The notes beneath the pieces were generated by a model. The model was given only the letters and a program-made list of their open reading frames with translations, was not told where the DNA came from and did not search any database. A program made the position numbers and the translations under genes. Positions 1,369 to 20,975 of a DNA stretch of 21,851 nucleotides are shown one piece after another. Positions within the stretch are counted from its first letter, which is position 1; each line of letters begins with the position of its first letter. Source of the DNA: a virus; the IMG/VR virus record IMGVR_UViG_3300005549_000033, positions 1 through 21,851 of that record. One strand, given 5' to 3'.

Positions 1369-3018
1369 GTGGCGCTGACAGGTACCGATCGCGGCACTGG
1401 CACCAAGAACTCGTCGGCGACCACCATCACGCTGTCGCCGAACGCCAACATCGGCGTCGGCTCGATGCTGGTGCTGGTGTTCGCAACCGACAACGCCCAC
1501 GCCGGGGGCACCGCCTTTACCACCTTCACCTGCACCGATAACGTCGGGGCGGGCAATACCTGGACCGCTCGGCAGGTTCCGCTGTACGACCCCGGTGCAG
1601 CCTCGGCTGGCGTAGCTGGCGCGATCTTCACGACCAGCATGAACGTCGGGCAGATCCTTTCTACCTCGGTCATCACGGTCACGGTGGATACCGCCACGGT
1701 TGCCTCCGCGTGGGCGTTGATCGAGATCGCGCCCACCTCCGGCAATATCGTCTCCTACGTCACCGGTGGAGTGAACACCGGCGCAGGCACCGCCGCTCCG
1801 ACGGTGACGACCGGCTCGATCAGCAACACCCACGCGGTGATCGGCGGCGTGTTCGCTGAGAACACCGCCTCCAGCGCCGATCCGTGGGTCGGTGACGCCG
1901 ATACCTCTAACGGCAACTGGTCCACCGAGCAGCACACCGGCGTCACTGCCTCGACCTCAGGCACCTCGGTTGGCGCGCAGTACAAGGTCGCCACCGCCAC
2001 CGCGACGCAGACCTACAACCCCACTGCCTCGGCTGGCACGCCCGACTGCATCCTGGCCTGGATCGAGCTGCGCGAGGATGTCAACGCCGCGGCTGGCAAG
2101 GCATCAGGCACCGGAGCGGCCAGTGCGGCTGCTATCTCCCTGGCGCCGGCTGGCGGATTGTCGAGTGGCACCGGCTCGGCTGGTGCTGCGGCTGACAGCG
2201 TTTCCCCAACTGCGGGGGTTAGCGCAGGGACCGGCGCGGCCTCCGCCGCCACGGTTGCCACTGGCAAGGAGGCACCGGCTGGTAATGCGGCCGGCACGGG
2301 AGCGGCCAGCGGGCCGAGCCTCAAGGTCGCACCTGGATCAGGCGCCGCAAGTGGAGTTGGGGCTGCTGGTGCTGCGGCAGCCTCGATGGCGCCCAACGCG
2401 GCGAACGCGAGTGGCACGGGAGCCTCGGGCTCCGCCACCAGCAGCGTCGCGCCGGTCATCGGAGCTGCCTCTGGCACCGGAGCGGCTGGCAATGGCTCCG
2501 CCAGTCTGCAACCCAACGCGGGCAATGCCAGTGGCTCTGGCGCGGCCGGCTCCGACAGTTCCTCAGTCGCTCCGACCGTCCAGGTTGCGGCCGGGACCGG
2601 CATCGCCTCGGGTGCCAACGGCTCAGAGGACGCCAGCCCGCTTATCGCCTCGGGCACTGGCGCGGCAGCCGGTGCCTCGCTGGCGCTGGCACCGCATGGC
2701 GGCAACGCTGCCGGAGCCGGGGCGGGCTACGACGCCACCGCCACGACCGGCGGGGCTGCGACCGATGCCTCGGCCGCGAACGCGGTCGCTACGGGGTCGG
2801 CCTACGACCCGACCGTCTCAACCTCTGCCGTGGCCGTTGGCCCACCTCGTCACGGGCCACGTCTGGGTGCGGCACGGGTCACCGGACCCGCTGGGCGCCG
2901 CCACATCACCATTCGGGCCAAGGCTGCTACCGCACACGGGCGCGGCTCTGCCTTCGATGCGATTACGACTTGGAATGACGATGAAACCGCCCTACTCCTG
3001 CTGCTGGAGGCTGCATGA
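1369..3018 (+). CDS. Fibre-like virion protein with N-terminal beta domain and Ala/Gly/Ser/Thr-rich repeats
   Basis: A 549-residue protein starting at GTG 1369, with AAGGCGG at 1353-1359 as a plausible ribosome site. Residues 1 to ~240 form a globular, Thr/Ala/Val-rich, probably jelly-roll-like beta domain (for example AWALIEIAP, CILAWIELRED). From residue 245 (nt 2101) a tract of about eleven 20-residue repeats follows, consensus roughly NASGTGAAGxAxxSVAPxAG. A degenerate unit and a basic segment come next, then an acidic/hydrophobic C-terminus ending LLLLLEAA. Similar (A)xGTGxA repeats occur in actinobacteriophage surface proteins. The low charge and many Ser/Thr make it a conceivable O-glycosylation acceptor for the enzymes encoded at 6344-11714; this is inference. 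The stop overlaps the next start (ATGA). Confidence 0.75.
   Translation: MALTGTDRGTGTKNSSATTITLSPNANIGVGSMLVLVFATDNAHAGGTAFTTFTCTDNVGAGNTWTARQVPLYDPGAASAGVAGAIFTTSMNVGQILSTSVITVTVDTATVASAWALIEIAPTSGNIVSYVTGGVNTGAGTAAPTVTTGSISNTHAVIGGVFAENTASSADPWVGDADTSNGNWSTEQHTGVTASTSGTSVGAQYKVATATATQTYNPTASAGTPDCILAWIELREDVNAAAGKASGTGAASAAAISLAPAGGLSSGTGSAGAAADSVSPTAGVSAGTGAASAATVATGKEAPAGNAAGTGAASGPSLKVAPGSGAASGVGAAGAAAASMAPNAANASGTGASGSATSSVAPVIGAASGTGAAGNGSASLQPNAGNASGSGAAGSDSSSVAPTVQVAAGTGIASGANGSEDASPLIASGTGAAAGASLALAPHGGNAAGAGAGYDATATTGGAATDASAANAVATGSAYDPTVSTSAVAVGPPRHGPRLGAARVTGPAGRRHITIRAKAATAHGRGSAFDAITTWNDDETALLLLLEAA
2101..2766 (+). repeat. In-frame tandem repeat tract, 60-nt period
   Basis: Repeat units begin with Ala/Ser-(Ser/Ala)-Gly-(Thr/Val/Ser)-Gly at 2101, 2161, 2221, 2287, 2347, 2407, 2467, 2527, 2587, 2647 and 2707. 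Spacing is exactly 60 nt except for one 66-nt unit. Each unit encodes 20 residues with a Gly/Ala-rich first half and an (S)xAPxxG second half. Nucleotide identity between units is incomplete, so the repeat is old or under protein-level selection. A degenerate further unit (ATGSAYDPTVST) starts near 2788. The tract lies wholly inside the coding frame. Confidence 0.85.
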
Positions 3019-3739: not shown

Positions 3740-4629
3740 TGGCAACCTGGTCCTCGGCATACATCACAGACCTTCCTGACAGCAGCTTCGCCTGCGTCAA
3801 CTCGTCCGGGCGTCACTACCCGCACCACGACGCCTCCGGCCAGCTCGACCTCCCCCATCTAAGAGCTGCTTTGAGCCGGATCGGGGACGCCTCTAACGAG
3901 CAGTGCGGCAAAGCCCACCTTCAGGCCCACGCCGACGCCAACCTCGGTAAGAGTCTGCTACCACTCAAGGCAGAGCCGATGGCTGACGACGAACTGAATG
4001 CCTGGTTCGCCGGCAAAGTTCCTCGTCGACTATTGGCGATCCCGTTTGGTGGTCCGATCCCCAACGGCAAGGCGGGGCTTGATCTCGACGGCGAGTTCTT
4101 CAGCCCCAACACCGACATCTACGGCAAGATCGCCGGACTGCGCAAGACGCGCGAGCGGCTGCTCGACTGGCACCACGGCGCCGACGAGCTGATGCGGCGA
4201 GTGGTGATCGGCAAGACCCTGCTCGACCCCAACCCCGACGAGGATGGCTGGTGGGTGGACGCTTGGCTCAAGGCCGGTTCCCAGCACCTCGAGATGGTCA
4301 AGCGGCTGGTGGAGCGCGGCGCTCAACTGTTCGGCTCGTCGGAGGCCGCCTACAAGAATGTGGCCGACGATGGCGAAATCATGGTCTGGCCGATGATCCT
4401 TGAGACCCTGACCACTCGCCCTACCAATACCCTCTCCGTCCTCCGCCCCAGTAAGGCGATGCTGGACGACATTGAGCCGGTCGATCCCGCCCTGCGCAAG
4501 GTGCTGGACGACCTCGGTGCCCTCAGCGGTTCCCTGACTCCGACCCTCCGTGGCGAGGTGGCGGCGAAGGCTGGGCGCGTGTTGGACGAATCCCTGGAAC
4601 CGTGGACCACCACGGCAAGGAGAACCTAA
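3739..4629 (+). CDS. Prohead (capsid maturation) protease
   Basis: A 296-residue protein. Residues 1-68 (DLPDSSFACV... RHYPHHDASGQLDLPHLRAALSRI... GKAHLQAHADA) resemble the small XkdF-like domain often found before phage proteases. The protease part follows: PIPNGKAGLDLDGEFFSP, LLDWHHG (His145/His146), DEDGWWVDAWLKAG, then ERGAQLFGSSE (Ser200/Ser201), and EIMVWPMILETLTTRPTNTLSVLRP. The His in DWHHG and a Ser in GSSE are the best catalytic candidates for a serine prohead protease that cleaves scaffold and capsid delta domains inside the procapsid. Placement directly upstream of the major capsid gene is canonical. The start is set by the ATGA overlap with the micro-ORF. The C-terminus overlaps an alternative GTG (4602) of the capsid frame. 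Confidence 0.85.
   Translation: MATWSSAYITDLPDSSFACVNSSGRHYPHHDASGQLDLPHLRAALSRIGDASNEQCGKAHLQAHADANLGKSLLPLKAEPMADDELNAWFAGKVPRRLLAIPFGGPIPNGKAGLDLDGEFFSPNTDIYGKIAGLRKTRERLLDWHHGADELMRRVVIGKTLLDPNPDEDGWWVDAWLKAGSQHLEMVKRLVERGAQLFGSSEAAYKNVADDGEIMVWPMILETLTTRPTNTLSVLRPSKAMLDDIEPVDPALRKVLDDLGALSGSLTPTLRGEVAAKAGRVLDESLEPWTTTARRT
4617..4622 (+). promoter_or_regulatory. Shine-Dalgarno AAGGAG deciding the capsid TTG start
   Basis: AAGGAG ends 9 nt before an in-frame TTG at 4632 and sits over the last codons of the protease gene. No comparable site precedes the earlier in-frame GTG at 4602. It therefore favours TTG 4632 as the capsid start. Confidence 0.65.
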
Positions 4630-4631
4630 CG

Positions 4632-5978
4632 TTGGACGACCTCAAGGAGCTGGAAGATCAGCTCGCCAAGCACGCCAACCGCGTCAAGGAGATCGGTGAC
4701 GAGATCAAGACCCTCGTCGAGTCAAACGACACCGAGTCAAAGGCACGTCTGGACGAGCTCCAGAAGGAGCAGCACACCCTGACCGAGGCGGTTGCACCGC
4801 TCTTGGCAGATAAGGAGCGCGCCGAACAGAAGGCCGCCGTCGAGCAGACCCAGCGTCAGCTCGAGAGCCTGATGTCCTCGACCCGCACCGCCAGCAAGGG
4901 CAGCCTGATTGGCGCCGGCCGATCGCCAGACCCGCAGGTACGCGCGGGAGCGTTCCTCGGTTCGCTGGTGGCCCTCAAGTCAGGCGACCCCGACCAGTTC
5001 CACGCCGCCAAGGCCACCCTCGAAGGCATCAGTGCCTACGAAGAGTCGTGGGGCAAGGCCGCACTCGGCACGTCGGACGCGACCGGCGGCTGGATCATCC
5101 CGAATGCGATCGTGGATGACATCATCAAGCCGGCCACGTTCAAGAACGTGTACCGCGACCTGATGACGGTGGTGCCCGGCGTGACCGCCTTCGCGGTCGA
5201 TGCCCCATTCCGCGCCGCATCTCCCAGCCGCGCGGTGATCGCACCGTTCGGCTCAACCAAGGAAAACGTGGACCTGACGTACAACGGCTACGCCGTGACC
5301 ATGTACACCTTGGCCCGCATCCACGATGTCGGCAACCAGTTCCTGCGCCAGTCGCAGGGAGCGGCCGAGACCGATGTCATGCAGGAGCTCGCCACGGCCT
5401 TTGCCCTGGGCGAGGCTTACTACATCCGAGAGGGTTCCGGCTCGTCCCAGCCGTTCGGGTACACCAGTGCCCTGACCAACGGGCCTGCCACCTTCCGGTC
5501 ATCTTTCTCGCCATCGGCCTCCACTCTGGCAGGCTCGATCCTGACCTCCATCGCCGCCGCCGCGGGCGCGTTGTCAGGCAGGGGTCGCACGCCGGACGGA
5601 GCGGTGCTGGCCGCCACCACCTACTGGACCATGGCCTCGCAGGGCCTGGACGGGACGGGCTTCTTCTATGCTCCGGCCGCTGGCCCGAGCGCGATCCGTC
5701 CCGGCACCCTGCTCACGCCGTGGGGCATCCCGGTCTATCCGGATGCCGCGGCCGATAACGAAGGCACGGCCGCCGTCCTCGACAACCTTGTCGTGGCGGA
5801 GTTCAAGTCCTTCAAGATTTACTTCGGCGAGAACTACCGCGTCGATTCGTCGAGCGTGGCCGGCACTCGCTGGGACGCCAACGTCACCGGCTTCCGAGGT
5901 GAGGAAGAGATGGGCTTCGATGCTCGTCCCGCCGTCTACTCGGGTGCCGCTCAGATGATCACTGACGTCTTGCCGTAG
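4632..5978 (+). CDS. HK97-fold major capsid protein with N-terminal scaffold (delta) domain
   Basis: A 448-residue protein from TTG 4632, chosen for its AAGGAG; a GTG at 4602 would add 10 residues and overlap the protease by 28 nt. Residues 1-85 are highly charged and predicted coiled coil (DDLKELEDQLAKHANRVKEIGDEI...), typical of a delta/scaffold domain removed by the protease, perhaps near the Ser/Thr/Gly-rich stretch at residues 82-97. The mature part contains SDATGGWIIP (148-157), FKNVYRDLMTVVPG, and LARIHDVGNQFLRQS. It then has EAYYIREGSGSSQPFGYTS, the capsomer A-domain-like TPWGIPVYPDAA, and FKIYFGENYRVDSS, with late RGEEEMGFDARP. All are familiar features of actinophage HK97-type capsids. 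It lies directly downstream of the protease. A TTG start is unusual for such an abundant protein. Confidence 0.9.
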   Translation: MDDLKELEDQLAKHANRVKEIGDEIKTLVESNDTESKARLDELQKEQHTLTEAVAPLLADKERAEQKAAVEQTQRQLESLMSSTRTASKGSLIGAGRSPDPQVRAGAFLGSLVALKSGDPDQFHAAKATLEGISAYEESWGKAALGTSDATGGWIIPNAIVDDIIKPATFKNVYRDLMTVVPGVTAFAVDAPFRAASPSRAVIAPFGSTKENVDLTYNGYAVTMYTLARIHDVGNQFLRQSQGAAETDVMQELATAFALGEAYYIREGSGSSQPFGYTSALTNGPATFRSSFSPSASTLAGSILTSIAAAAGALSGRGRTPDGAVLAATTYWTMASQGLDGTGFFYAPAAGPSAIRPGTLLTPWGIPVYPDAAADNEGTAAVLDNLVVAEFKSFKIYFGENYRVDSSSVAGTRWDANVTGFRGEEEMGFDARPAVYSGAAQMITDVLP

Positions 5979-6019
5979 CCAATCGGCTCCCCCCTTGCCG
6001 TGGGACATCAGGCAGGACT

Positions 6020-6037
6020 GGCCGGACCTAAGCGGCC
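6020..6037 (+). other. Short hairpin between capsid gene and next gene
   Basis: GGCCG (6020-6024) pairs with CGGCC (6033-6037) around an 8-nt loop in the 86-nt gap after the capsid stop. No T-run follows, so it is not a convincing intrinsic terminator. It could be an RNA-stability or attenuation element. Confidence 0.25.
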
Positions 6038-6064
6038 GCCTAACTTCGTAGCGAGGTGCCATTC

Positions 6065-6259
6065 ATGGCGACCGCCAAGAAACCAGCGGCGAAGCAGCCG
6101 AAGACCTCAGGCGAGGTCGTCTCTGCCTCCGTCGCCGAGTCCATGGCTGCGTATCGGGCCGATCAAGAAGCCGCCGCAGCGAAGCCGGTCAAACCAGCCA
6201 AGCCTGCCCCGGCGATCGAGGAGCAGCCCGCCGCCTACCAGGGTCACGATCGGCGTTAG
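6065..6259 (+). CDS. Small Lys/Ala/Pro-rich protein after the capsid gene
   Basis: A 64-residue protein from ATG 6065, preceded by GCGAGG at about 8 nt; an in-frame GTG at 6056 is less well placed. The sequence is low-complexity and basic at the N-terminus (MATAKKPAAKQPK), has one short amphipathic helix (AESMAAYRADQEAAAA) and a K/P/A repeat (KPVKPAKPAPA), and ends GHDRR. No family is recognised. Its position right after the capsid gene is where decoration or small head-completion proteins are often found, but that is only context. The stop codon lies inside a hairpin that begins a series of three inverted repeats. Confidence 0.6.
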   Translation: MATAKKPAAKQPKTSGEVVSASVAESMAAYRADQEAAAAKPVKPAKPAPAIEEQPAAYQGHDRR

Positions 6260-6281
6260 CGCCGGGCCGGTGCTTCGGCCC
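6252..6281 (+). terminator. Putative hairpin terminator or attenuator at the head-module boundary
   Basis: Two adjacent perfect inverted repeats. GGCG-TTAG-CGCC (6252-6263) contains the stop codon of the preceding gene. GGGCCG (6264-6269) pairs with CGGCCC (6276-6281) across the loop GTGCTT. The downstream sequence TTCATGGGTT has only a weak T content, so this is at best a partial terminator between the capsid genes and the glycosylation island. Confidence 0.4.
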
Positions 6282-6290
6282 TTCATGGGT

Positions 6291-6320
6291 TGACGGGCGT
6301 AGAAGCACCTCCGCCCGTCA
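6291..6320 (+). other. Perfect 9-bp inverted repeat upstream of the island
   Basis: TGACGGGCG (6291-6299) is followed after 12 nt by its exact reverse complement CGCCCGTCA (6312-6320). It lies between the terminator-like hairpin and the AGAGG ribosome site (6334-6338) of the methyltransferase. It could be a second transcription-attenuating hairpin, a protein-binding site, or a trace of the recombination that inserted the island. Confidence 0.5.
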
Positions 6321-6343
6321 CCCGCCTACACTCAGAGGTGCTC

Positions 6344-7033
6344 ATGTTCCGAACCCCCAACGGCTCGTCCTTCTCGCTGGTGGTGCGCGGCGATACCAAC
6401 GATGGCGCGCTGGCCGTCGGCATCCTGGGTACCGATGAGTACCAGCTCGCTGGGCTGAAGATCGAAGGCTGGGCGCTCGACATCGGGGCCCACATCGGCA
6501 CGGTCGGCCTCGCGCTGGCCATCGACAACCCCGAGCTGCGGGTCATCTGTGTCGAGCCGGTGCCCGACAACTGCGACCTGATCCGCGAGTCGATCCGGCT
6601 CAACGGGCTCGGGGAGCGGGTGTTCGTGGAGGAGGCTGGGGCGGGCGCCATTGGGCAGAGCACGGTGCCCTGCCACTACGCCTACACCGCGGCCGGCATC
6701 CCCGACAAGAGCTACGTCGAGCAGAACCGCTACATCGGCAACCTGTGGCGCGGCAGCATGGAATCGGTAGGCACCGTCATCGACGCCCCGGTGGTGACGC
6801 TGGCCGGGCTGCTCGACAAGTACGGCATCGACCACTTCGACTTCGCCAAGACTGACTGCGAGGGTTGCGAGTGGGAGTTCTTTAAGGACGGCGCAGGCGT
6901 CATCGACTACATCCTGGGTGAATGGCATGACGGGCCGTTCAGCCGCATCCACGACCTATTGAACAAGACGCACGACGTGACGCTGGTCACCGACTACGGA
7001 GGCAGCGGCATCTTCCGCGCCGTTCGGCGGTGA
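6344..7033 (+). CDS. FkbM-family SAM-dependent methyltransferase
   Basis: A 229-residue protein from ATG 6344, chosen because AGAGG (6334-6338) lies 5 nt upstream; an in-frame TTG at 6290 has no ribosome site and sits at a hairpin. Motif I for SAM binding is ALDIGAHIGTVGLAL (residues 44-58). The acidic residue after beta-2 is in CVEPVPDNC (69-77). The family-typical ending VTLAGLLDKYGIDHFDFAKTDCEG (151-174) is characteristic of FkbM methyltransferases, which O-methylate small molecules and sugars. Length fits the family. It leads a translationally coupled cassette of glycosyltransferases (GTGA overlap at 7030), so O-methylation of a virion- or phage-directed glycan is the likely role. The acceptor is unknown. 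Confidence 0.85.
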   Translation: MFRTPNGSSFSLVVRGDTNDGALAVGILGTDEYQLAGLKIEGWALDIGAHIGTVGLALAIDNPELRVICVEPVPDNCDLIRESIRLNGLGERVFVEEAGAGAIGQSTVPCHYAYTAAGIPDKSYVEQNRYIGNLWRGSMESVGTVIDAPVVTLAGLLDKYGIDHFDFAKTDCEGCEWEFFKDGAGVIDYILGEWHDGPFSRIHDLLNKTHDVTLVTDYGGSGIFRAVRR

Positions 7034-7857
7034 GGGTCCTCTTAGACAGGCACCACGGGGTGCTCCACGAAGCGCTGTGCATCCTGTTCGAGGACCGCTT
7101 CGGCTGGGAGACGGCGGTGTGGATCGACGGCCAATACGTCACCGGGCCACCGATGATGGATTTCCCGCCGCGGACCAGCCTCACGTTGAGTTCTGAGACC
7201 GTCCGCGAGTGGCGGCCGGATTTCGTGATCGCCTCGGTGTTCGGGACGCGGCAGCCGATGAAGGCGTTAGCGAAGGAGGTCGGCGCGGTCTACGTCGACC
7301 ACGTGGGCAACGCGTGGGACGCACCGATCAGTGATCACGCCCTGCGCTCGGTGGCCGGCGACTACGGCATCCTGTACCACTCCGAGTTCCACCGGGTGCC
7401 GTACACCGAGCCGACGGGCAACCGCATCGGCTCCTTCCACGGTTCGCTGGCCGTGTCGCCGTGTCGCGCCCACTGGGATCGGGCGCATCGGGAGCACCCC
7501 GAGTGGGACTTCCAGCTCTACGGCGTGGCCGAGAATCCGCTCTACCCGTGGCAGGTAGCGCAAGCCATGGCTGACTGCTTCGCCATCTGGCACGACAAGG
7601 ACGCCGACGGCTACGGCTTCACGGTGCATGAGACGTTCGCTTCCGGGCGGCCGGTGATCGGCCACGCAGGACACTACGCGGGCAAGCTGGCCGAGGGCTT
7701 GTGGGAGCGCGGTGTCACCTATCTCGAGCCCGACGATGACCTGAGCAAGGCTGATGCCGCGATGGGGCAGCGGGCGCTCGCGCGTTTCGAGGCGCTGGTA
7801 GACTTCGACGCGGAGGCGGACGCGATCCGCGAATACCTGGAGGTGCTTCTCCGATGA
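7030..7857 (+). CDS. Putative glycosyltransferase (GT-B type), paralogue of the 9253 gene
   Basis: A 275-residue protein from GTG 7030, overlapping the methyltransferase stop (GTGA). The N-terminus MRVLLDRHHGVLHEALCILFEDRFGWE and the C-terminal part (HPEWDFQLYG; DADGYGFTVHETFASGRPVIGH; YAGKLAEGLWERGVTYLEPDDD) look like the two halves of a GT-B fold. The DGYGFTVHETFASGRPV stretch occupies the place of the GT4 nucleotide-sugar-binding motif (EGFGL...E). It aligns with the protein at 9253 over most of its length, which is ~80 residues longer. Sugar donor and acceptor cannot be told. The glycosyltransferase assignment rests on the C-terminal motif and on neighbours, so it is less secure than for the 10320 gene. 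Confidence 0.65.
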   Translation: MRVLLDRHHGVLHEALCILFEDRFGWETAVWIDGQYVTGPPMMDFPPRTSLTLSSETVREWRPDFVIASVFGTRQPMKALAKEVGAVYVDHVGNAWDAPISDHALRSVAGDYGILYHSEFHRVPYTEPTGNRIGSFHGSLAVSPCRAHWDRAHREHPEWDFQLYGVAENPLYPWQVAQAMADCFAIWHDKDADGYGFTVHETFASGRPVIGHAGHYAGKLAEGLWERGVTYLEPDDDLSKADAAMGQRALARFEALVDFDAEADAIREYLEVLLR

Positions 7858-8264
7858 GCGACTGCTGGGAATGGCCTGCGGGCCGAACGTCTGCCGGATA
7901 TGGCATCACCCGGATTCGCAAGCGGCCTGTCTACGCTCACCGATGGTCATGGGAACAGACGAACGGGCCGATCCCTGTCGGTATGTTCGTCTTGCACCAC
8001 TGCGACAATCCGCCGTGTGTTCGTCCATCCCATTTGTTCCTCGGAACGAACCAAGACAACCGCCGTGATGCGATGAGCAAGGGTCGCGGTAGCCAGCCTC
8101 CGCACTACTACGGGGAGCAGCACCACAATCATCGACTCACGCTTGCTCAAGCACGGGCAATCAAGCAGGATCGCCGGATACTCCGAGAGGTAGCCGCGAC
8201 TTACGGTGTCAGCATCCCCACCGTTCACTCCATCCGGGCAGGTAAGACCTGGAGGGATGCATGA
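7854..8264 (+). CDS. HNH endonuclease (free-standing homing type) with C-terminal HTH
   Basis: A 136-residue protein. The N-terminus has CWEWPAGRTSAGYG and AHRWSWEQTNGPIPVGMFV, followed by the HNH core HHCDNPPCVRPSHLFLGTNQDN (residues 48-69) with His49, the Cys50/Cys55 pair, His60 and the terminal Asn residues of the beta-beta-alpha-metal fold. Residues 95-134 form a DNA-binding helix-turn-helix (ILREVAATYGVSIPTVHSIRAGKTW). This is the standard layout of free-standing phage HNH homing endonucleases. It sits between two glycosyltransferase genes with ATGA overlaps at both its start (7854) and end (8261), so it does not interrupt translational coupling. It need not take part in glycosylation and may be a mobile passenger. 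Confidence 0.88.
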   Translation: MSDCWEWPAGRTSAGYGITRIRKRPVYAHRWSWEQTNGPIPVGMFVLHHCDNPPCVRPSHLFLGTNQDNRRDAMSKGRGSQPPHYYGEQHHNHRLTLAQARAIKQDRRILREVAATYGVSIPTVHSIRAGKTWRDA

Positions 8265-9256
8265 GCCGGATTCTGCTTTTGACGGCGCACAGCATCGCTG
8301 AGTTCGATGACCTCCGAATGCTGCACGAGATTGGCCACGAGGTCATGTCCATCGGGGCTTACCTCGACCCGGCCCGTCCGCAAGATGACAAGCGGCCTGC
8401 CTTACCCGAAGTGCCGCCCGCCCCGAAGGAGCTAACCGACCTCGTAGTCGGGGATCAGATTCAGTTCAAAGGGCATCTGCCCGACGCGATCCTCGACTGG
8501 GCTGAGATCGTGATTTGCCATCATTTCACATACGATTGGGTTGGGGGCCAGTGGGGGAAGCTGCGGGACCACGGGTGCCGCGTCATCTGGCGCACCTGCG
8601 GGCAGACCTCACCACAGCTCGAACAGTTCATGGAGTACCTGCGCCCTGAAGGGCTCCAAATCGTGCGCTACAGCCCCAAGGAGCGATTCAACGGACCGTG
8701 GTTCGCTGGGCAGGATGCGCTGATCCGGTTCGGCATGGACCCCGACGAGTTCTCGGGCTGGCATGGCTCCGAGGCGGTGGTCGGCAACGTGACCCAGGAT
8801 ATGGTGAACCGCGCCGATGCCTGCGGCCTCGACTTCTGGCTGGAGGCGACGGGCGAGATTGCACGCAAGCCGGCCGGCCCGAACTCGCAGCTCCTGCCGG
8901 ACGGCATCGGAGCGCTCACTTATGAGGGTCTGCGCGAGTACCTGCGCTCGATCAGGACCATGCTCTACACCGGCACCCTGCCCGCGCCCTACACACTTGG
9001 GCTGATCGAGGCCATGATGACCGGGGTTCCCGTCGTCTCAATCGGCAAGCAAGCGTGGGGCCTGCCCGACCTGTTCGAAGGGTCGGAGATCACCGGCCTG
9101 TCGAGCAACACGCCGGACGGCGCCAAGGCACTGCTCCTCGCCTTTCTGAACGATCCGGCCTTCGCTCGGGCGGAGAGCAATCGCCAGCGTGAACGGGCGA
9201 TTGATCTGTTCGGGATGCCGAAGATTCGTGAGCAGTGGCGAGCATTCCTGGCGTGA
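8261..9256 (+). CDS. Glycosyltransferase, GT4-like GT-B fold
   Basis: A 331-residue protein starting in the ATGA overlap with the HNH gene. An N-terminal Rossmann-like half is suggested by MSRILLLTAHSIAEFDDLRMLHEIGHEVMSIG and ILDWAEIVICHHF. The C-terminal half contains YTGTLPAPYTLGLIEAMMTGVPVVSIG (from about residue 236), which corresponds to the GT4 motif that binds the nucleotide-sugar donor; the conserved Glu is in LIEAM. GLSSNTPDGAKALLLAFLNDP and a terminal helix fit the usual C-terminal region of these enzymes. It probably transfers a sugar from a nucleotide donor onto a glycan or protein; the acceptor is unknown. It shares less similarity with the 7030/9253 pair than they share with each other. 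Confidence 0.75.
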   Translation: MSRILLLTAHSIAEFDDLRMLHEIGHEVMSIGAYLDPARPQDDKRPALPEVPPAPKELTDLVVGDQIQFKGHLPDAILDWAEIVICHHFTYDWVGGQWGKLRDHGCRVIWRTCGQTSPQLEQFMEYLRPEGLQIVRYSPKERFNGPWFAGQDALIRFGMDPDEFSGWHGSEAVVGNVTQDMVNRADACGLDFWLEATGEIARKPAGPNSQLLPDGIGALTYEGLREYLRSIRTMLYTGTLPAPYTLGLIEAMMTGVPVVSIGKQAWGLPDLFEGSEITGLSSNTPDGAKALLLAFLNDPAFARAESNRQRERAIDLFGMPKIREQWRAFLA

Positions 9257-10323
9257 GAGTCCTCGCCGATTACCACCACTCAGACTTGTTCGAATCGCTG
9301 GCCTTGCTTTTTGAGGATCGGTACGGCTGGGAGTTGTTTCGCCCGGCCGGGATGGAGTGGTTTGATGAGGGCTACTGGAACTTCGAGCGCAAGTTCCACG
9401 GTGACGCGGTAGCCAAGCAATACCTCGCCATCTGGAAGGACGACAGGTACGCGGGCGACCACTTCAGACGCGACGACACCACCCACCCAGGGCGCATCCT
9501 CAAGGGCGTCACACTGGAGCAGGCGCGCTCCCAGTCGTGGGACATCGTGCTCTGCACCATCAGCCACAACGAGTCCGGCTTCGCCCGTTTCGCTGCGGAG
9601 GTCGGCGCCCACTACGGCATCCAGGCTGGCAACGTGGGTCAGATCGCCAACGTGGCGGTCGAGGGTGCGGGCTGGGGACCGACCGAGTTCGTGCTGGCCT
9701 CGACCACCTTCGATGTGCCGATCCCGGTGCCCTACGTCATCTACCGGCAGGAGTTCAGCCTGCACGACTTTCGCTTCGAGTGGCCGCCGGTCGAATCCAA
9801 GAGCGTGGCGTCGTTCGTGCAGTGCTTCGCCGAGAACCGCGGCATGGAGCGCGGCGGCTTCTACGATGAGTTCGAGCACTTGGCGCTGACCTACCCCGAG
9901 TTCGACTGGAAGGTGTACGGGGCTTACGGCACCCAGCCGGAGGACCAGTGGGCCTGCGGCAACCTGCCATCCACGCCTGACGTGGCGGCGCACATGCGCG
10001 CGTCATGGGCGCTGTGGCACGCCAAGTTCTGGAGCGATGGCTACGGGCATGTTGTCCATAACATCCATGCCGTGGGACGGCCGATCTTCAGCTACCACAA
10101 CTACTACGCCGATAAACTGGCCGGGCCACTGATGGAACACGGCGTGACCGGCTTCGACCTCAACCGCATGGACGAGGCGGAGATCATGGCCACCCTGCGC
10201 CGGCTGCGGGAGCCGGAGTACCACCAGCAGATCAGCGTGGCGACGGCGGCGCGGTTCCGTGAGATCGTCAACTTCGACGAGGACGCTGAGAAGGTGAGGG
10301 CGCTGCTAGAGTCCATCCTGTGA
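9253..10323 (+). CDS. Putative glycosyltransferase, longer paralogue of the 7030 gene
   Basis: A 356-residue protein. GTG 9253 overlaps the previous stop (GTGA), matching the start of its paralogue; an in-frame ATG at 9235 would remove that junction. The N-terminus MRVLADYHHSDLFESLALLFEDRYGWE aligns with MRVLLDRHHGVLHEALCILFEDRFGWE at 7030. The C-terminal halves share PE(W/F)D(F/W)xxYG, DGYGxxVHxxxAxGRP, YxxKLAxxLxExGVT and a final RF..(V)xFD...R..LE. Extra sequence lies in the N-terminal half (about residues 30-90) and middle. Likely GT-B glycosyltransferase, but no experimentally known family is recognised with certainty. The gene is coupled to the next by GTGA. Confidence 0.65.
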   Translation: MRVLADYHHSDLFESLALLFEDRYGWELFRPAGMEWFDEGYWNFERKFHGDAVAKQYLAIWKDDRYAGDHFRRDDTTHPGRILKGVTLEQARSQSWDIVLCTISHNESGFARFAAEVGAHYGIQAGNVGQIANVAVEGAGWGPTEFVLASTTFDVPIPVPYVIYRQEFSLHDFRFEWPPVESKSVASFVQCFAENRGMERGGFYDEFEHLALTYPEFDWKVYGAYGTQPEDQWACGNLPSTPDVAAHMRASWALWHAKFWSDGYGHVVHNIHAVGRPIFSYHNYYADKLAGPLMEHGVTGFDLNRMDEAEIMATLRRLREPEYHQQISVATAARFREIVNFDEDAEKVRALLESIL

Positions 10324-11714
10324 AGCTGCTGTTCGTCGGCGATCTAGCCGCCACCGGGTTTGGCACGGTTACGACGGACCTCGGGCGCGACCTGCTCAGG
10401 CTCGGCGTCGACGTGCGCTTCCTCAGCCAGAATGACACCGGCAAGGAGTTGCCCGAGCCGTTCCTGTCCCGCACCGCCGATCTCCGGTCGCTGATCCAGG
10501 CGGTAGACCCACAGACTGGTGAGGCAGGGGTGCAAGGCGCCAACCCCCAAGTCCCGGCCCTGATCTACGGCACGTCGAGCGCTAGCCTGACCAATGGTGA
10601 GTCGTGGGGCAACTGGAAACCGGACGCCTGCCTGCTGCTCGGCGACTTCCGCGCCGCCCAGATGTTCGTCAATCTCGCGGTCGAGGCGTTCGCCTCGCTA
10701 CCGACCATGCTCTATATCCCAGTCGAGGGCACCGACCTTCCCCCCTCTTGGAAGCGCCTGTTCGATATCGCGCACCCGGTGGCGATGAGCAGGTTCGGCG
10801 CCAAACAGCTCGCCAAAGTGATGGGCCATCCGGTGCCGATGGTCTACCACGGGGTGGATACCAGCGTCTTCCGCCCCGTCGAGCAGCGGTCGATCACGCT
10901 CACCAACGCGCAGGGCGAGACGACCACCTTCACCACCCGCGAGGAATGCAAGCGTTCGTGGGCCTACCTGCTGGCCAAGATCAACCAGGTCGATCGCATC
11001 CCGCGCAAGTGGCTGCTGCGCACCGACCGCAACATGCCGCGCAAGCAGTACGCCCGCATGCTGCGCTCACTGGCGCCCGTGCTGGAGCGTCATCCGGGCT
11101 GGGGCTTGGTCATCCACTGCTCTGTCTTCGATCAGGGGGGCTTCCTAGCCGATTCGGCGAGCAAGTACCCTTCGGTGCGCGACCGCATCCTGTTCACCGA
11201 TGCCGTGATCGACCGCGAGTCGCTGGTCATGCTGTACAACTCGGCCGACCTGTACGTCTCCAACAGCGCCGAGGGCTTCGGCCTGACCATCGCTGAAGCC
11301 ATTGCCTGCGGCGTGCCGGCGGTCGGGGTTCGCTATTCAGCCGTGCCGGAGGTGATCGGGCCGGCGGGCGTGACGGTGGATCGCTTCACGCTGATCGACA
11401 ACGAGTACGATCACTACTGGTGCGCGGTCGACGAGACGGCCTTCGCCAAGGAGGTGGAGGCACTGGTGACTGCCGATGCGCACCGGGAGGCGCTGGGAGC
11501 CAAGGGACCCAAGCACATCGCGGCTTCGTTCAGTTGGACGACCGCCGCCAAGCAGTTCGTCGAAGTCTTCGAGTCAGAGGTCGCCGCATGGCATCCTTCA
11601 CCAGCATCGCCGCAGTCCGCGAGTACCTCAACAACGTCCCCAACTCCGGCCAGTTCACCGATGGCATCCTCGGCAGCAACATCGTCGTTGCCTCCAATCG
11701 CCTCCAGCGCCTGA
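10320..11714 (+). CDS. GT4-family glycosyltransferase with out-of-frame C-terminal extension
   Basis: A 464-residue reading frame from GTG 10320 (GTGA overlap). The N-terminal domain begins MKLLFVGDLAATGFGTVTTDLGRDLLRLGVDV. YHGVDTSVFRP (from residue 176) marks the interdomain region. The C-terminal domain has ILFTDAVIDRESLVMLYNSADLYV and EGFGLTIAEAIACGVPAVG (Glu318 and Glu326, the EX7E donor-binding motif of GT4 enzymes), then SAVPEVIG. The catalytic domain should end near residue 424 (VEVFESEVAA). The last ~42 residues are Ser/Pro/Thr/Ala-rich and are encoded by DNA that is also the first 127 nt of the connector gene in another frame. That tail is probably not functional sequence and reflects loss of the original stop. 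Confidence 0.85.
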   Translation: MKLLFVGDLAATGFGTVTTDLGRDLLRLGVDVRFLSQNDTGKELPEPFLSRTADLRSLIQAVDPQTGEAGVQGANPQVPALIYGTSSASLTNGESWGNWKPDACLLLGDFRAAQMFVNLAVEAFASLPTMLYIPVEGTDLPPSWKRLFDIAHPVAMSRFGAKQLAKVMGHPVPMVYHGVDTSVFRPVEQRSITLTNAQGETTTFTTREECKRSWAYLLAKINQVDRIPRKWLLRTDRNMPRKQYARMLRSLAPVLERHPGWGLVIHCSVFDQGGFLADSASKYPSVRDRILFTDAVIDRESLVMLYNSADLYVSNSAEGFGLTIAEAIACGVPAVGVRYSAVPEVIGPAGVTVDRFTLIDNEYDHYWCAVDETAFAKEVEALVTADAHREALGAKGPKHIAASFSWTTAAKQFVEVFESEVAAWHPSPASPQSASTSTTSPTPASSPMASSAATSSLPPIASSA

Positions 11715-12235
11715 CCAACCGCCAGTTCGAGGTCCAGCTCGCCGCGACCAAGACCTTCACCACCCGCGGCCGGGCCAGCCTGACCATCCCCGACCTGACC
11801 TCTGCCTCAGCGGTGATCCTGAACAGCTCGACCCTGACGGCCAACTCGTCGTACTACCTGATCCCCGACGCGCACAACTCGGGCGTGTTCACGGCCATCG
11901 ACCTGCCGCAGTACCGGGCTCCATGGGACTACCGCGGCTACTCGGACTGGTTCGACAAGAACTACGACTCGCCGCTGTACCAGGCTCGGCTGCGATCAGG
12001 CATCCCCAACGACCTGTCGATCACCGGCACCTGGGGCTGGGCCTCCATCCCCGAGGAAGTCGCCAAGGCGACGGTGGTGCTGGCCGCCTGGTACACCAAG
12101 CGCCCCGATGCGGTGCTGGCCAACACTATTCAGACGCCGGAGGGCAACGTGTTCGACCTGTCGCGGCTGCCGCCGGAGGTGCAGGGCTTCGTGACCGAAT
12201 GGAGGATCGACCTCGACGCGGTGGCCAGCCTGTGA
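11588..12235 (+). CDS. Head-tail connector (adaptor) protein
   Basis: A 215-residue protein from ATG 11588; the frame is open further upstream only as a shadow inside the glycosyltransferase gene. MASFTSIAAVREYLNN at the N-terminus, NIVVASNRLQRLTNRQFEVQ and SVILN-like strands (SASAVILNSSTLTANSSYYLIP) occur together. They are followed by a Trp/Tyr-rich segment, GTWGWASIPEEVAKATVVLAAWYTKR and a short C-terminal helix, a layout typical of gp6/gp15-like connector proteins that bind under the portal. Gene order (connector, gp10-like, tail terminator, major tail protein) supports this. The start overlaps the glycosyltransferase 3' end by 127 nt, marking the right border of the inserted island. Confidence 0.8.
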   Translation: MASFTSIAAVREYLNNVPNSGQFTDGILGSNIVVASNRLQRLTNRQFEVQLAATKTFTTRGRASLTIPDLTSASAVILNSSTLTANSSYYLIPDAHNSGVFTAIDLPQYRAPWDYRGYSDWFDKNYDSPLYQARLRSGIPNDLSITGTWGWASIPEEVAKATVVLAAWYTKRPDAVLANTIQTPEGNVFDLSRLPPEVQGFVTEWRIDLDAVASL

Positions 12236-12681
12236 CCGTCAAGGGCATTCCCGAACTGCGCACCCGGCTCGAACGCATCAAGCCATCGCCCGAGCTGATG
12301 CGCACCCTCGGCCTGTCGGCCATCCGCGAGCAGAAGTTGCTGGTCCCCAGAAAGACCGGCAACTTGGGCAGAAGCATCGGGCTGGGCTCGATCACCCCGA
12401 CCGCGGTGGTCACGCGGGCAACGGCTGCCTACGCCGCCTTCGTCGAGTTCGGGACGCGGGCGCATGAGATCGTGCCGCGCGCGCGCAAGGCCCTCAGATT
12501 CGCTCCTACGGGCTCTGGGCGGCTATCCGGTGCCCCTCGCTCGGGTGGTCCGGTCGTGTTCGCCAAGCGCGTGCGTCATCCGGGTACCAGGGCCAAGCCG
12601 TTCATGCTTCCGGGCGCTCGAGCGGCGGTCGCAGGCGCAGCGTTTCGTGACACCATCGTGCGCCTCTGGAACGGGCGATGA
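12232..12681 (+). CDS. HK97 gp10-like head-tail joining/minor tail protein
   Basis: A 149-residue protein from GTG 12232, which overlaps the connector stop (GTGA); longer versions of the frame are shadows. The N-terminus MTVKGIPELRTRLERIKPSPELM is followed by IREQKLLVPRKTGNLGRSI, AAYAAFVEFGTRAHEIVPR, and a C-terminal HPGTRAKPFMLPGARAAV. V(P/R)xxTGxLxxSI, FVEFGTR and HPGTxAxPFM are classic HK97 gp10 family motifs. The protein joins head completion and tail assembly. Its first 17 residues resemble the micro-ORF at 3674. Confidence 0.88.
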   Translation: MTVKGIPELRTRLERIKPSPELMRTLGLSAIREQKLLVPRKTGNLGRSIGLGSITPTAVVTRATAAYAAFVEFGTRAHEIVPRARKALRFAPTGSGRLSGAPRSGGPVVFAKRVRHPGTRAKPFMLPGARAAVAGAAFRDTIVRLWNGR

Positions 12682-20561: not shown

Positions 20562-20975
20562 GTGGCCGAAACGATCGAGCAGTACGCCCAACGCGAGCGG
20601 GCGATGAACAAGGTGTCGCAGGCGAAGGCCAAAGGCATCCTCGTTATTCTGCCGTGCAGAGTGTGTGGAGCTGTTGACGTTCAGGCACATCATCCCCGTG
20701 GCTATTCGGATGAGCATGCATTAGATGTTGAGTGGCTTTGCTCGATCCACCACAGACAAGCTCATTTTGTGATGCGAGGAAGGAACGTGAGCGACCTAAC
20801 CTACCGCGAAATGCAGGTATCCGAGTACGTCGTCGCCGGCCTCAAGGCCAAGGAGATTGCGGACCTACTCGGGCTCAGTGAGCAGACCGTGAAGAACACC
20901 AAGGTCGCCATCTACCAGAAGCTCGGCGTCCGCAACGCGGTCGAGTTGACACTGAAGCTGAAGGAGCCCGCATGA
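20562..20975 (+). CDS. HNH-like zinc-finger domain fused to LuxR/GerE-type HTH
   Basis: A 137-residue protein from GTG 20562. Residues 1-25 are a charged helix. Residues 31-70 hold CRVCG (Cys32, Cys35), AHHPRGYS (His43, His44) and WLCSIHHRQAH (Cys60, His63, His64, His68), an HNH-like zinc-binding arrangement found in small phage proteins; nuclease activity is uncertain. Residues 78-133 are a LuxR/GerE DNA-binding domain: LTYREMQVSEYVVAGLKAKEIADLLGLSEQTVKNTKVAIYQKLGVRNAVELT. Such domains normally serve as transcription activators. The first part is visibly less GC-rich than the second and contains a TTA codon, suggesting the two domains have different origins. A GTG at 20787 with its own ribosome site could produce the HTH domain alone. 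It is the first gene behind the promoter at 20527. Confidence 0.8.
   Translation: MAETIEQYAQRERAMNKVSQAKAKGILVILPCRVCGAVDVQAHHPRGYSDEHALDVEWLCSIHHRQAHFVMRGRNVSDLTYREMQVSEYVVAGLKAKEIADLLGLSEQTVKNTKVAIYQKLGVRNAVELTLKLKEPA
20776..20789 (+). promoter_or_regulatory. Internal ribosome site and GTG that could yield the HTH domain alone
   Basis: GAGGA (20776-20780), within GAGGAAGGAAC, lies 6 nt before an in-frame GTG at 20787 (residue 76). Initiation there would give a 62-residue protein consisting almost only of the LuxR-type HTH, the size of a typical small stand-alone GerE protein. Confidence 0.5.

Follow-up and report, generated by a model that had tools for sequence, protein, structure and literature searches.

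A conserved glycosyltransferase cassette between the capsid and connector genes of an uncultivated phage group, with a proposed role in virion glycosylation

The window analysed here is the whole 21,851-bp record IMGVR_UViG_3300005549_000033 (65% GC), which comes from an uncultivated tailed phage. A comparison with 50,697 phage records gave no close match. On its plus strand it encodes, in order, a MuF-like C-terminus, a protease, the major capsid protein, an FkbM-family methyltransferase, gtA and an HNH endonuclease, followed by gtB, gtC, gtD, a head-tail connector, a neck protein, a tail terminator, a tail tube and a tape measure protein. The sugar-related genes considered here form a cassette, all on the plus strand, flanked by the genes for the major capsid protein (4602-5978) and the connector (11588-12235). 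Its bounds in the initial annotation, 6344-11714, are exact, starting at the FkbM initiation codon (ATG) and ending with the stop codon of the last glycosyltransferase gene. The gene content given there (an FkbM methyltransferase, four glycosyltransferase-like proteins and an HNH protein) is borne out by Pfam and NCBIfam matches, by GT-B models of gtB and gtC and by an alignment of gtA with gtC. The cassette is well supported as a conserved unit, and from its anatomy we infer a function in decorating the virion. The features of the locus are as follows:

4602-5978, plus strand: major capsid protein, left flank and proposed glycan acceptor (PF05065, E 3e-15; phrog_10, E 8e-19)
6065-6259, plus strand: small Lys/Ala-rich open reading frame (ORF) 3' of the capsid gene, with small ORFs resembling it in relatives (frame and codon GC pattern)
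6264-6339, plus strand: stable RNA hairpins between capsid gene and cassette (minimum free energy and z-score; excess across the group)
6344-7033, plus strand: predicted FkbM-family S-adenosylmethionine (SAM) methyltransferase (PF05050, E 2e-10; TIGR01444, E 1e-15)
7030-7857, plus strand: gtA, putative shortened, divergent paralogue of gtC (alignment with the gtC family)
7854-8264, plus strand: HNH endonuclease, probably a mobile passenger (PF13392, E 1e-16; phrog_59)
8261-9256, plus strand: gtB, predicted GT-B-fold glycosyltransferase (AlphaFold (AF2) model, pLDDT 96.9)
9253-10323, plus strand: gtC, predicted GT-B-fold glycosyltransferase (AF2 model, pLDDT 93.6)
10320-11714, plus strand: gtD, GT4 glycosyltransferase, constant member and candidate initiating enzyme (PF13692, E 2e-12; EX7E motif)
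11588-12235, plus strand: head-tail connector, right flank, starting within gtD (gene position; conserved in relatives, where it lies between gtD and neck1)
12232-12681, plus strand: neck1 / tail completion protein (phrog_5, E 8e-14)

Relatives of this phage were gathered by the capsid profile alone, and the sample was therefore not selected for glycosyltransferases. In all 43 capsid-selected viral contigs that reach the connector, gtD is found in the capsid-connector gap, and 37 of the 43 carry gtB, gtC and gtD there, these contigs being partly non-independent (e.g., L028/L029 and L140/L141). The other six combine gtD with other gap genes, including GT2-type and, in some, methyltransferase genes. 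A first survey of 49 contigs, partly selected on gtB, gave a median gap of 4.7 kb, the commonest gene order being FkbM-gtB-gtC-gtD (n = 35). Such a survey of relatives had been suggested together with the view that the block is inserted into the head-tail operon; that term is misleading, since the block is constant in the phage group, and a one-off insertion in this contig is dismissed by the conservation in 43 of 43. The gtB family occurs in 115 viral contigs, and a scan of 84,980 genomes recovered it in only three contigs of metagenome-assembled genomes (Nanopelagicales, Omnitrophota and Gottesmanbacteria), which may be phage contigs placed there by binning. WhiB was tried as a marker of an actinobacterial host and set aside, with matches in 0 of 20 relatives. 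A single capsid relative among the contigs with several kb past the capsid gene has no glycosyltransferase (L138:1879-9351); since its connector and tail tube genes are unrecognised too and a recombinase-like gene lies nearby, it is probably a rearranged element.

The members of the cassette differ in how closely they follow the capsid. Protein distances were compared by Spearman correlation across 24 contigs dereplicated at 70% capsid identity, and those of gtD and the capsid gave a rho of 0.77, a value reached in none of 500 permutations. The capsid correlated with the connector at 0.74 and with the protease at 0.56, and gtD with the connector at 0.84; with the connector controlled for, the partial correlation between capsid and gtD was 0.41. 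Against the capsid, rho was 0.03 for gtB, 0.04 for gtC, -0.03 for the neck protein and 0.22 for the tail tube, and FkbM gave 0.05 in an overlapping set of 39 contigs. This pattern indicates that the middle of the cassette is exchanged, whereas its flanks, the capsid on one side and gtD with the connector on the other, travel together. Tracking of the capsid by gtD is what one would expect if gtD were matched to the capsid.

Genes within the block overlap by 4 bp (7030-7033, 7854-7857, 8261-8264, 9253-9256 and 10320-10323), and gtD overlaps the connector gene by 127 bp. The shared strand and translational coupling with the late operon that had been proposed hold within the block and into the connector, but the coupling does not extend to the capsid gene, because a 365-nt interval with the small ORF and stable hairpins intervenes between the capsid and FkbM genes. 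The RNA of positions 6250-6345 has a minimum free energy of -48.3 kcal/mol (z = -3.5), and strong structure just 3' of the capsid gene is found group-wide: z falls below -2 in 70% of 61 loci, whereas the figure is 12% for random windows and 5-36% for other gaps. The hairpins at 6264-6339, which have no U-tract, are possibly an mRNA-stability or attenuation element, and this structure might serve to combine high capsid output with lower enzyme output. A promoter and terminator scan of the block gave no signal above shuffles. An ORF at 6000-6293 was considered as a gene and dismissed, the likely frame being 6065-6259.

Regarding the enzymes themselves, the product of the FkbM gene is clearly a SAM methyltransferase by its family matches, and its relatives are present in most cassettes of the phage group. 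gtD belongs to GT4 by Pfam (PF13692, with PF00534 also above cut-off), and E318 and E326 of its EX7E motif are invariant across 10 relatives. By contrast with these matches, neither gtB nor gtC is matched above cut-off in Pfam or NCBIfam. Structure prediction, one of the checks suggested at the outset, was carried out for these two and yielded confident models with clear GT-B folds: the best VIA-align hit has a Z of 25.1 for gtB (285 residues, 2.6 A) and of 23.4 for gtC (302 residues, 3.2 A). The top structural matches of the models are PsBGluT/BshA and TarM, and MshA is also among the nearest solved structures. Of the two EX7E glutamates, gtB retains the second alone (75 of 75 sequences), and gtC has D-G-[FY]-G-H at this site; the two enzymes thus combine a predicted GT-B fold with departures from the EX7E motif, and GT4 membership is not claimed for them. 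gtA keeps 31 of the 44 conserved positions of the gtC family and is, as judged from this alignment, a reduced and divergent gtC paralogue. The HNH gene is probably a mobile passenger, given its lower GC (0.60, as against about 0.65 in its neighbours) and its sporadic occurrence among relatives. The highest 19-residue hydropathy of the window enzymes ranges from 0.6 to 1.61, and they look soluble. Chance or mis-annotation is dismissed as a source of the block, all its enzymes having conserved motifs and many relatives. No tblastn match to gtB, gtC or FkbM was found in the 50,697 phage records.

Among relatives, the same gap holds a variable set of further genes. These encode a GDP-mannose 4,6-dehydratase (GMD; E 3e-125), an NAD-dependent epimerase, a UDP-glucose/GDP-mannose dehydrogenase, an FdtA-type isomerase (E 5e-41), a KdsB-like cytidylyltransferase and a PseH-like acetyltransferase, as well as FabH with a short-chain dehydrogenase, a hexapeptide-type protein, several methyltransferases and GT2 enzymes. 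Such sugar-nucleotide and glycan-tailoring functions fit an assembled carbohydrate. One very rich gap (L130:11667-18170) holds GT2s, FdtA, a GNAT acetyltransferase, an acyl carrier protein-like protein, a short-chain dehydrogenase and FabH between capsid and gtD, which suggests a phage-made acylated sugar. Two recurrent cassette families, clusters c1 and c9 (L069:8854-9813, L112:14820-15518 and relatives), are without a Pfam match; the c1 family counts 21 loci and is unmatched by tblastn in the phage collection.

The gtB, gtC and gtD families are also found beside unrelated capsids. In L105, L111 and L112 they lie directly 3' of a P22-like coat gene and 5' of an adaptor gene, and in L060 and L092 they lie near other head proteins. 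That the enzymes recur next to virion modules of separate ancestry favours a function in the virion. In L064 and L090 the block stands between the connector/neck genes and the tail tube gene, which it directly precedes, and in L089 and L085 it lies upstream of the portal gene; the capsid-connector gap is therefore not its sole site.

Phage-encoded virion glycosylation, invoked as a precedent in the initial annotation, has indeed been reported in mycobacteriophages, both on capsids and on tail tubes, and for Corndog, Che8 and Myrna in particular (PMC12363180, PMC11600133, PMC11256854). Among the structural genes of Corndog, a cluster O phage, are those of an O-methyltransferase and three glycosyltransferases, for which its authors proposed capsid modification (PMC4351075); the modification of its capsid and tail tube was later attributed to these enzymes (PMC11600133). 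Corndog gp35-gp38 thus resemble the cassette in placing a methyltransferase and glycosyltransferases among virion structural genes, but they lie between portal and protease, whereas the window cassette lies between capsid and connector. In a tblastn search of the phage collection with gtD no mycobacteriophage was matched, and Corndog was compared by its published description only. Che8, of cluster F, has glycosyltransferases gp108-gp110 that reportedly add glycans to its major capsid protein (PMC11256854, PMC12363180); they are encoded far from the capsid, at the distal end of the genome, and the Che8 capsid and adaptor genes are 11 bp apart. Profiles of the cassette families gave no match to gp108-gp110 with E up to 10, and these are therefore not the same enzyme set, though they may work alike.

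The closest arrangements in cultured phages share gtD only. Genes 010-012 of Pontimonas phage phiPsal1 encode a gtD-type glycosyltransferase, a SAM methyltransferase and a GT2 between the capsid and an HK97-gp6-like neck protein, to which the window connector is weakly matched (E 9e-8). This phage has neither gtB nor gtC, its methyltransferase is annotated on the opposite strand and its capsid is only marginally similar; no glycosylation test turned up in the single paper located. The cultured cyanophage Mae-JY09 of Microcystis (L155:5995-9267) carries a gtD-type RfaG glycosyltransferase and an NAD-dependent epimerase, the latter annotated as a hypothetical protein, between the capsid and a head-tail adaptor. 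It has no match to gtB, gtC or FkbM and a different capsid, and its annotation is silent on virion modification. Further afield, the chlorovirus PBCV-1 uses virus-encoded glycosyltransferases and a methyltransferase domain to build the glycans of its major capsid protein (PMC7826918, PMC4691112). The gtD profile matches chlorovirus B736L (E 1.5e-5), a likeness at the level of the GT4 superfamily only, and PBCV-1 is a eukaryotic virus with N-glycans. The expectation of an undescribed system was therefore only partly right, since phage-encoded virion glycosylation has been described, including enzymes located inside structural genes in Corndog; what appears new is the combination of enzymes, its constant site between capsid and connector throughout the group, and the linkage of gtD to the capsid. 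No description of the cassette as a conserved system was found in the literature searched, most subscription papers lying outside it.

Collectively, the constant position, the swapping of sugar-nucleotide genes in the same gap and the association with unrelated capsids point to the virion. With moderate confidence, the block is taken to be a late, modular pathway whose product is a methylated glycan attached to a virion protein. The capsid is the most likely acceptor and gtD the candidate initiator. A late, capsid-adjacent cassette of this kind, as initially proposed, stands as the best reading, and it is the glycan on a virion protein that we infer. In the putative pathway, the soluble glycosyltransferases would use sugar nucleotides from the host or the phage, and a short methylated glycan would be formed directly on the virion protein, in the cytoplasm, during head assembly. 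gtD would start the glycan by adding its first sugar, with the major capsid protein as the most likely target; it is proposed as initiator because it is the sole always-present member and the only tested one co-inherited with the capsid. gtB, gtC and gtA would extend the glycan and FkbM would methylate it, the chemistry, enzyme order and acceptor all being putative. Exchange of the middle genes would then alter the glycan, and hence the surface shown by the particle. More tentatively, and with somewhat less than even confidence, the cassette could represent core capsid glycosylation in a large uncultivated group, in which a capsid-matched gtD is inherited with the capsid and the middle genes are exchanged like serotype cassettes, giving surface serotypes, with some relatives themselves producing the deoxysugar or acylated-sugar precursors (GMD, FdtA, FabH, cytidylyltransferase).

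Several points weigh against virion glycosylation by this block. The GT-B fold of gtB and gtC reveals neither donor nor acceptor. Co-inheritance of gtD with the capsid could reflect plain linkage of conserved flanks, in view of the partial rho of 0.41 given the connector. The block is elsewhere in the virion gene cluster in L064/L090 and L085/L089, and the remote glycosyltransferase genes of Che8 imply that a position beside the capsid gene is not needed for capsid glycosylation.

Each of the other explanations fits the anatomy of the block less well. The glycan could be carried by another virion protein, for example the tail tube or a structural protein rich in Ser/Thr, with the capsid itself unmodified; this is unlikely, although mycobacteriophage tail tubes are glycosylated too (PMC11600133, PMC12619734) and the L064/L090 blocks immediately precede the tail tube gene, since tail tube distances track those of gtD weakly (0.30, as against 0.77 for the capsid). 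The window also encodes, upstream of the capsid and between the MuF-like gene and the protease, a 549-aa low-complexity protein rich in Ala, Gly, Ser and Thr (1369-3018), which has no Pfam match. Similar proteins are recognised in few cassette-bearing relatives, and it is dismissed as a universal acceptor. That the enzymes instead glycosylate the phage genome, yielding hypermodified bases against host nucleases, is improbable. DNA-glycosylating phage enzymes share the GT-B fold, and the T4 alpha-glucosyltransferase with DNA (1y8z) matches gtC with a Z of 19.6, but many GT-B enzymes of other function match gtC as well or better. A DNA-protection role was proposed for glycosyltransferases of Nanopelagicales phages (PMC10202952); however, among 20 long relatives, whose records may be incomplete, a thymidylate-synthase-family match occurs in one (the contig of L028, G004:8941-9279) and a Tet/JBP match in none, though the control for the latter search was silent. 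Several glycosyltransferases together with deoxysugar and methylation genes beside the capsid fit a surface glycan better than DNA, and DNA modification is weakened as a first choice.

Phage serotype-conversion glycosyltransferases are known for envelope-modifying roles, and the enzymes might likewise modify the host cell envelope, blocking superinfection or altering adsorption. A superinfection role was also suggested for the Nanopelagicales phage enzymes (PMC10202952). This, too, has a low probability: the genes are locked into the late virion gene chain rather than an early or lysogeny region, the enzymes look soluble, and the block contains no Pfam match to a Gtr-type flippase or integral-membrane glycosyltransferase and no clearly hydrophobic membrane protein. 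The confinement of the gtB family to three contigs in the 84,980-genome scan gives no sign of lysogenic carriage.

If glycosylation of the virion by this cassette is true, the natural role of phage surface glycans, in receptor use, sorption, grazing or stability, becomes testable. So far, glycosylated phage virions are known from a handful of mycobacteriophages, where interest has centred mainly on immune recognition during therapy; in the present case the cassette is retained at a constant site throughout an environmental phage group, with its components being exchanged. The cassette also supplies two glycosyltransferase families, gtB and gtC, without a match in the annotated phage records searched. 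Elsewhere in the window, downstream of the tail genes, positions 20562-20975 encode a LuxR-type helix-turn-helix protein (GerE, E 3.5e-15).

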